From assembly GCA_027078475.1 (NCBI GenBank), contig JALWYH010000128.1:1-34860 (forward strand): a stretch of 34,860 nt of DNA. Reading direction: 5' to 3'. How positions within the stretch are numbered: the stretch's first letter is position 1; each line of letters opens with the position of its first letter. The translations under genes were made by a program, and so were the position numbers. Positions 21,126 to 23,788 of the stretch are shown in pieces. The notes beneath the pieces are model-generated. The model saw nothing but the letters and a program-made list of their open reading frames with translations, had not been told where the DNA came from and ran no database searches. The DNA comes from Thermoproteota archaeon (GTDB taxonomy: Archaea; Korarchaeota; Korarchaeia; Korarchaeales; Korarchaeaceae).

Positions 21126-23762
21126 TCAAGATACCACGCAGGCCGACCATCCGCAGTCGAGGCAGGTGACGCAGTCCTCCTTGTACACCAGCCTGGTACT
21201 GCCGCACTCCGGGCACCTCTCCACGTGGTTCGTGGGGGGAGGAGAAGGGGGTTTGAAGACAGGCTGTGCGGGAGCTTTCTCCTCCACAGGAGCCTTCCTC
21301 AGCTGGGGCAGCTCTATTCCGAGCATCTCCATCATCTTCAGTGTCTGATTCCTAGTTCTGATCACGTACTCACCCTTCCTCTGTGAGGGCGTGACCAGCA
21401 CCTGGGCTGCCTTCGAGCCATCCCTGTAGACCGTTATTCCCTTTAGCCCCAGTCTGTGAGCGAACAGGTAGGCCTTCTCCACGTCCGAGATGGACACCCA
21501 GTTCGGCATGTTTATGGTCTTGCTGACGGCCGCGCAAATCCACTTGGCTATCTCCGCCTGGGCCCTGACGTGATCCCACCACGGTATGTCATAGGCGACG
21601 AGGAACACCTCCTGCATCCTCCTGAATACATCTTCCCTCCCCTCGGGAGGCTCTATACCCTGCAGGGAGCCCCCGTTATCCGCTATCTCCTTCAGCAGCT
21701 TCTCGTGGTAAAGACCGTTCTCCTTCAGCTGCCTCTCCAGCTCCCTATCCACGTAGAAGAAGGAACCGACCGACACCCTCTTCTCATACACCAGGGCGAA
21801 CTGGGGCTCTATACCAGAGGAAACGTCGGCTATCATTGATATGGATCCTGTGGGAGCTATAGTTGTCATCTCGGCGTTTCTGAGGCCGTGTCTCATTACC
21901 CCATCCTTGAGCCGATCCCAGTCCAGGTGCCACCACTCCGGGTGGTAGTAGCCCTCGACCGGCATCTCTCCCTTCAGGTAGGAGGACTCGGTGTAGAGCG
22001 GGAAGGTTCCCCTCTCCTTGGCCCTCTCAACACTCTCCATCATGGCGAAGTACGTGAGGTACTCCGTCACCCTCCTCATGAAGTCGAAGCCCTCCTCGCT
22101 GTTGTAGGGTATCCCCAGTGCAAAGAGCGCGTCAGCAAGGCCCATCAAACCGAGACCGACCTTCCTCGTTGCCTTGGTATTCCTCTCTATTTCAGGGATG
22201 GGGAACTTGTTCACATCGATGACGTTGTCGAGGAAGCGGAGGGCCAGTCTGATGTCCTCGGAGTAAGCATCCCAGTCGAAGGATATTAATCCATTCTTTC
22301 TCCTGATATAGGCATATAAGTTAATACTTCCTAAATTACACGACTCATATGGATATAAAGGCTCCTCACCGCATGGGTTTGTTGATTTTATTTCACCCAA
22401 CGCGTCCCTCATCACGTTCCTCTTGTTGATGTTGTCAGCGAACAGCACGCCAGGATCACCGGTGCGCCACGCCATTTCGGCGATCTTCCTGAAGAACTCC
22501 CTCGGGTCTATGGTGTCCCAAACCTCTCTATTCCTCGGGTTGATCAGGGGGTACTCCTCCCCCGACTCGAACTTGGGCCAGAAGTCTCCTGTTATCATCA
22601 CGGATATGTTGAAGTTCTCGAAATGGCCGGGTTCGGCCTTGGCCTCCACGAACCTCCATATGTCCGGATGCCATATCTCAAGTATGCCCATGTTAGCGCC
22701 CCTCCTGCGCCCGCCCTGCTTAACCACATCCGTGATCACATCTATTATTCGCATGAAGCTGACCGGACCGGATGCTTGTCCTCCTGTGGAGCTCACGATG
22801 TCTCCTTGGGGCCTGAGCTTAGAGTAGTTTATCCCGACTCCTCCACCGGATTTGAAGATCATGGCGGCATCCGTGGCGGCCTTCATTATGGAATCCAAGC
22901 TGTCCTCTATGTTGAGGACGAAGCATGCAGAGAGCTGCCCCAGCCTTGTACCAGCATTGAACAGGGTTGGGGAGTTGGGTATGAACCTTAGATCCACCAT
23001 AAGCCTGTAGTAGTTCAGGAAGTCCTTGTAGTGGATGTCGAACTCTCCTTGAAGAAGCATGTCCCAGAATTGGGACCAGCTCACCTTCATCTTACCCTGC
23101 CTGTTGAGCTCGTCGTACAAGGCCTTCATCCTCTCCAGATGGTAGCGATTCCATGTGAAGGCCGGGGCGAGGTGATCCTCCGGGTGGCCGTTCCTCAGGC
23201 CCACCCTACCTTCCCACTGAACGGGATCGAACTCCTCCTCTGGATGGATCTGTTGGCCTCCCTCCCTGTCGAACACTTTTGGATCGTATAGGATATCGGG
23301 TATCACCACCAGGGAGGCGACCCTTATGAACATGCCCTTTGGATCCTCCTCCAGCTTACCGCTCGGATCCTTCTGAAGATATCTGGCGGCGAGAAGCCTT
23401 ATAGCGTTGAGGGAGAGCCTCTTATCCACGTCGTCGACGTAATCCTTGCCCAGAATGGCCATCTTCTCCTTCCTTATCTTTTCCCTCTCCTTCCTGTAGA
23501 GTATGTAGGCCTTGGCCACATCGAAGAGGTCGTACTTCATCAGGGCCAGTTCAACTATGTCCTGGATCTCCTCCACGTGAGGAGGGTTCTCATCGCTGAA
23601 GGTCCTGTTTATCACTCTGAGTATGTACCTGACCACCTTGTCCAGGGTGGCCTCATCGTAATGCCCCACCTCCCGCATGGCCCCTTCTATGGCCCTCCTT
23701 ATGCGGGAGGAGTCGAACGGGACGATTCTTCCATCCCTCTTGACTACCTTCGTTACTGCCAT
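21126..23762 (-). CDS. nrdJ: Adenosylcobalamin-dependent (class II) ribonucleotide reductase
   Basis: An 878-residue enzyme that reduces ribonucleotides to deoxyribonucleotides using an adenosylcobalamin radical. An N-terminal ATP-cone (VTKVVKRDGRIVPFDSSRIRRAIEGAM) should give allosteric control. SACFVLN near residue 280 carries one redox Cys, and STNPCGEEPLYPYESCNLGS (NPC Cys at about 464) is the finger-loop motif with the thiyl-radical site. The C-terminus has CPECGS...CLDCGWSACVVS, a zinc-ribbon-like and redox cysteine tail common in class II enzymes. ATG 23762 fits the TATA box; GTG 23768 is two codons earlier. Codon use changes abruptly to AT-rich between about 22281 and 22400, exactly around NPCGE (see findings). 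No intein is present now. Confidence 0.95.
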   Translation of the reverse strand: MAVTKVVKRDGRIVPFDSSRIRRAIEGAMREVGHYDEATLDKVVRYILRVINRTFSDENPPHVEEIQDIVELALMKYDLFDVAKAYILYRKEREKIRKEKMAILGKDYVDDVDKRLSLNAIRLLAARYLQKDPSGKLEEDPKGMFIRVASLVVIPDILYDPKVFDREGGQQIHPEEEFDPVQWEGRVGLRNGHPEDHLAPAFTWNRYHLERMKALYDELNRQGKMKVSWSQFWDMLLQGEFDIHYKDFLNYYRLMVDLRFIPNSPTLFNAGTRLGQLSACFVLNIEDSLDSIMKAATDAAMIFKSGGGVGINYSKLRPQGDIVSSTGGQASGPVSFMRIIDVITDVVKQGGRRRGANMGILEIWHPDIWRFVEAKAEPGHFENFNISVMITGDFWPKFESGEEYPLINPRNREVWDTIDPREFFRKIAEMAWRTGDPGVLFADNINKRNVMRDALGEIKSTNPCGEEPLYPYESCNLGSINLYAYIRRKNGLISFDWDAYSEDIRLALRFLDNVIDVNKFPIPEIERNTKATRKVGLGLMGLADALFALGIPYNSEEGFDFMRRVTEYLTYFAMMESVERAKERGTFPLYTESSYLKGEMPVEGYYHPEWWHLDWDRLKDGVMRHGLRNAEMTTIAPTGSISMIADVSSGIEPQFALVYEKRVSVGSFFYVDRELERQLKENGLYHEKLLKEIADNGGSLQGIEPPEGREDVFRRMQEVFLVAYDIPWWDHVRAQAEIAKWICAAVSKTINMPNWVSISDVEKAYLFAHRLGLKGITVYRDGSKAAQVLVTPSQRKGEYVIRTRNQTLKMMEMLGIELPQLRKAPVEEKAPAQPVFKPPSPPPTNHVERCPECGSTRLVYKEDCVTCLDCGWSACVVS
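22281..22400. other. AT-rich codon island inside nrdJ at the catalytic NPCGE motif
   Basis: By hand count 42 of 120 bases are G or C (35%), in a gene that is otherwise clearly GC-rich. Codons switch to TTA, CCA, AGT, AAT, TAT and GGT across the segment from about EIKSTNPCGEE to RRKNGLIS, then return to the CTG/CCC/GGC style. The protein stays in frame and conserved. Confidence 0.75.
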
Positions 23763-23788
23763 CTTCACCGGGTTCTGTGTCGGAAGGA

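Follow-up and report, generated by a model that had tools for sequence, protein, structure and literature searches.

The 34,860-nucleotide stretch of archaeal DNA analysed in this study (the window) contains a ribonucleotide reductase gene, nrdJ, with a short island of AT-rich codons at its catalytic motif. On balance, this island probably marks an intein target that is empty in the window while the mobile element continues to cycle within this archaeal family; a recent exchange of the surrounding tract would represent a step of the homing cycle, and the AT-rich codons would be a local signature of the alleles at the site. The features concerned are listed below, where a slash marks the bond at which inteins are inserted.

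21126..23768, minus strand: nrdJ, class II ribonucleotide reductase of 880 aa with ATP-cone, all-alpha and barrel domains, without an intein.
22149..22433, minus strand: recent recombination tract, identical to the sister species G004 at 284/285 bases.
22284..22397, minus strand: AT-rich codon island (GC3 0.29) from a segment scan, running from codon -8 to codon +30 relative to the insertion site.
22371..22376, minus strand: empty intein insertion site, NP/CGEEP (Pro codon 22374-22376, Cys codon 22371-22373), placed from the junctions of relatives.

The gene belongs to the class II (B12-dependent) enzymes, scoring 725 bits against TIGR02504 (NrdJ_Z), for which the curated cut-off is 400, and it also matches PF02867, PF03477 and PF00317. 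Its catalytic STNPCGEEP is uninterrupted and in a single frame, with no insertion. The first-pass annotation had described an AT-rich island at the NPCGE motif, and this description was confirmed: positions 22280-22399 have 35.0% GC, whereas almost every other 120-bp window of nrdJ has 48-64%, and GC3 within the island is far below the gene-wide value of approximately 0.74 (p<0.0005 against simulation in a maximum-scoring-segment scan of the whole gene). The limits first given for the island correspond to codons -9 to +31. A sliding scan of GC3 along the gene, with amino-acid make-up controlled, likewise placed the minimum at the catalytic site, where the lowest 43-codon window is centred on codon +14 from the NP/C bond (z = -6.6), compared with z = -2.6 for the lowest window elsewhere in nrdJ.

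The proposal that nrdJ hosts inteins at this conserved motif held to the exact bond, which is occupied in 6 of the 15 same-genus genomes searched (G003, G006, G007, G010, G014 and G015) and in two same-family carriers outside the genus (G023 and G020). When the window NrdJ was used to search for homologues, the proteins of relatives were broken at query residues 464-467, and their inserts, which are 393-395 aa long in the six same-genus genomes and G023, start with CVAGDT or similar and end in HN, lie in frame precisely between ...STNP and CGEEPL.... Across relatives the junction reads ...STNP, then an intein of 393-396 aa (...HN), then CGEEPLYPYESCN, and it maps between 22373 and 22374 of the window; the intein that was to be looked for in close relatives was thus found, at the NP/C bond inside the island. 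The motif is uninterrupted in the window and in G001, G002, G004, G008, G009, G011, G012, G016 and G022. The nrdJ-site inteins contain Intein_splicing (PF14890) and LAGLIDADG_3 (PF14528) domains. Judged by eye from the sequences, G006, G007, G014 and G015 seem to have retained the two endonuclease motifs intact, whereas those of G003, G010 and G023 look eroded, which would fit the decay phase of the homing cycle. No relative of the nrdJ-site intein was identified in the window genome, which has an intein fragment elsewhere (C24). At least one PF14890 match is present in 23 of the 24 genomes of the window's family, the window's included (L145-L173), with 11 matches in G021 and 7 in G017.

In the host tree, several forks of which are weakly supported, the intein-bearing G007 and G015 nest among the intein-free window, G004, G008 and G001. 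In G020, a member of another genus, an empty allele ends contig C15 (L013/L260) and a filled allele begins contig C3 (L046), and the two C-exteins differ at 7 of approximately 267 positions; these copies are two alleles within one assembled population. The filled allele has no extra AT-rich co-converted flank relative to the empty allele. Since the inteins of G020 and G015 are 91% identical compared with approximately 76% for their host proteins (exteins), the intein has moved horizontally between genera. As far as can be read from sequence, the nrdJ site is a genuine intein target that still looks active, with a predicted endonuclease, and empty alleles, invaded alleles with intact motifs, alleles with decayed motifs and coexisting alleles are all found at this one site.

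Around its empty site, the window is nearly identical to G004, a species of the same genus with a GC-rich nrdJ and no intein, and the sole tract partner found. The tract extends 60 bp from the junction on the N-extein side and 225 bp on the C-extein side, and its only difference, at 22298, gives Lys in the window and Glu in close relatives. No synonymous codons differ between the window and G004 over codons -20 to +75 (0/92), compared with 226 of 680 outside (P = 7e-17); divergence is approximately 20% on both sides of the tract, and identity is approximately 81% genome-wide. These comparisons identify a recent gene-conversion tract with sharp edges over the site. As both the window and G004 lack the intein, the allele that moved was intein-free. 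A short gene-conversion tract from an AT-rich archaeon had been suggested earlier; the tract itself stands, but its partner is a GC-rich congener. Similarly, grouping of the segment with neighbours had been named as a sign against foreign origin, and G004 is indeed a neighbour with which the segment groups, although through recent exchange and not through descent. Outgroup distances in the tract shoulders point to neither direction of transfer. Recombination with an intein-free allele is a named route of precise intein loss (PMC1654191). The tract is consistent with eviction of an intein, and an empty site that had been cut and repaired from an empty homologue would look alike.

It had also been reasoned that AT-rich codons shared by close relatives over the whole gene would speak against a local event; relatives share them only at this site. 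The best AT segment spans the junction in eight genomes, of which three are carriers of the nrdJ-site intein: in addition to the window and G004, which have identical limits, it covers codons -22 to +46 in G001, -22 to +38 in G015, -29 to +46 in G007, -63 to +15 in G008, -19 to +15 in G016 and -11 to +38 in G014. The empty allele of G020 also dips (z -7.1). The dip is absent in G002, G009, G010, G011, G012, G022 and others, and the motif therefore does not inherently require it; the genomes and genes without it include GC-rich carriers of the nrdJ-site intein (G010, and L256 with a GC3 of 0.92). Averaged over genomes chosen for having it, the dip weakens with distance from the junction. In the same genomes, no dip was observed in the flanks of a widely retained intein at GK/SSF of an ATPase, putatively HerA-like by motif (z30 -1.1 to +2.6), or in the flanks of two MCM-like intein sites. 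Candidate causes of the AT shift are hitch-hiking flank haplotypes, a bias linked to repair, and local selection.

There are several potential explanations for these patterns other than an intein cycling at the site. The one deserving most weight, although we consider it unlikely, is ordinary homologous recombination between sister species that coincided with the intein site by chance; the AT-rich codons would then be an old peculiarity of the clade, inherited vertically, and the intein would have played no part. Across 80 kb of aligned window and G004 DNA with a mean identity of 81%, only two other 285-bp stretches are equally close, and each is part of a longer exchanged region of approximately 2 kb (the hypE/Mrp-like region L138, and L140), and a probable tRNA-bearing stretch is somewhat less close than the nrdJ tract. 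Recent exchanges thus do occur elsewhere, and since their tracts make up an estimated 6% or so of the compared DNA, that of nrdJ may have fallen on the intein site by coincidence. However, any given site is only approximately 1-6% likely to lie in a recent tract (estimated from the same 80 kb), and the tract in nrdJ spans the junction and is shorter than usual. An inherited quirk would agree with the presence of some dip in all six clade members (the window, G004, G008, G001, G007 and G015), but a dip is also found in G016 and G020, of another genus, and in G014, always over the junction. A pair scan found further stretches of low divergence in nrdJ, around codons -400 to -361 and +254 to +293, and few species pairs other than the window and G004 had their divergence minimum at the intein site, so that exchange or constraint is not confined to that site. 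At codons -400 to -361, a stretch that may be either conserved or exchanged, many species pairs have very low nucleotide divergence (3 differences between the window and G007 compared with 20.6 expected).

It is improbable that an intein was gained from an AT-rich archaeon together with co-converted AT-rich flanks and then precisely lost. Inteins do occupy the same site in AT-rich archaea (L042, GC3 0.35; L039, GC3 0.32), and L042 shares a nucleotide string with the window from codon -3 to +9. In addition, among fourfold sites with A or T in both sequences, the window and the intein-bearing G015 have the same base at 9/9 within the island compared with 22/37 elsewhere (p 0.018, uncorrected for the many pairs compared). 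However, the identity with L042 stops within the island, and G004, with which alone a shared tract was found, is GC-rich in nrdJ. The nrdJ-site inteins of the window's family have a GC3 of 0.49-0.71, near host composition, and the flanks in some of the same genomes have a GC3 of 0.1-0.3 (in G007 and G015, inteins at 0.64 lie beside flanks at approximately 0.1-0.3); flank and intein are therefore unlike a single AT-rich import. The scar of intein gain and precise loss, as first proposed, is thus partly supported: the insertion site, the intein and gene conversion over the site are confirmed, the supply of the flanks by an AT-rich intein donor is not supported, and intein gain followed by loss within the window's own lineage is plausible.

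Selection at the nucleotide level for AT-rich codons at the catalytic motif, through mRNA structure, codon pace or protein binding, would account for dips in the same place in several lineages and for a weaker tendency in GC-rich intein-free genes of the Thermococcales. We nevertheless regard it as decidedly improbable, given that no dip is present in the GC-rich G002 and G010 or in L186, L191 and L192, that the edges of the island vary among lineages, and that the degree of synonymous conservation at the site is ordinary. The phylum of G033, which we take to be the Thermococcales from genome content, resembles the window's family in having patchily present NrdJ inteins at the same NP/CGEEP bond, which comprise either 378-385 aa with an endonuclease or 153 aa as mini-inteins (L249-L252 and L259 are examples of the latter at this bond, with no endonuclease motif). 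The dip is weaker there than in the window's family and is not linked to intein state, with a mean z of -1.8 in GC-rich intein-free genes (n=24) and -1.2 in intein-bearing genes (n=12). In three intein-free genes of this phylum (L205, L217 and L229), codons -9 to -1 before the junction encode an AT-rich NEPIRATNP in place of the usual G(E/G)(K/P)IRATNP, a haplotype that suggests another exchanged flank.

An assembly artefact, with sequence of G004 copied into the window contig or vice versa, is a very remote prospect. G004 was binned from a metagenome, as the fragmented window genome probably was too, but the tract contains one difference and lies in one open frame between sequences approximately 20% divergent on both sides, and the dip is independently present in G001, G016 and G015.

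Four further candidates were rejected. An AT-rich viral donor found no support among viral contigs, none of which encodes a relative of the window NrdJ; there were only two weak matches to intein fragments and 0 to the exact target string. Generic codon constraint at the motif as the sole cause does not agree with the several GC-rich genomes without a dip, nor does a general intein-flank effect agree with the other intein sites that lack one in the same genomes. Strand-asymmetric deamination at a break was considered in view of K/E/Q codons ending in A (20/23 on the N side compared with 3/28 on the C side, at few codon positions in related genomes), but this signal comes from a handful of positions and fourfold sites have no asymmetry.

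Within the reading of an intein cycling at the site, its endonuclease would cut an empty site, or an intein-bearing allele would recombine, and the gap would then be filled from an intein-free homologue. The exchange between the window and G004 would then be the stage of the homing cycle at which a cut site is repaired or an intein evicted, and the AT-rich codons would be a local signature of site alleles in lineages where the intein cycles, one that occurs to differing degrees in intein-bearing relatives as well and does not point to a single AT-rich intein donor. The stages of the published cycle (PMC1654191), namely empty site, invasion, decayed endonuclease and precise loss, are all seen directly here except loss, which we infer for the window lineage. 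Intein-free and intein-bearing alleles coexist in Halobacteria (PMC4071816), and an extein residue is co-converted at a low rate in haloarchaeal MCM-d (PMC10643990). The present case is similar in its presence/absence polymorphism and in the exchange of flanking extein DNA; it differs in that the window tract is itself intein-free, spans 285 bp and is dated as recent by near-zero synonymous divergence. An AT-rich synonymous signature around an intein site was not met in the literature searched.

It is also conceivable, although speculative and in our view rather unlikely, that cutting and repair at the homing site leave an AT-rich synonymous footprint that peaks at the cut and fades over approximately 25-35 codons, in intein-bearing and intein-free alleles alike. 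If so, synonymous codons would record past homing even after loss of the intein, and provided that the codon signature tracks homing, genes with an empty site could be searched for signs of earlier occupancy. The known homing cycle is well documented by this case, which captures a moment of it that is rarely recorded, in which the empty site lies within a recently exchanged intein-free tract. The family in which it occurs allows empty, filled, decayed and coexisting alleles to be compared side by side.
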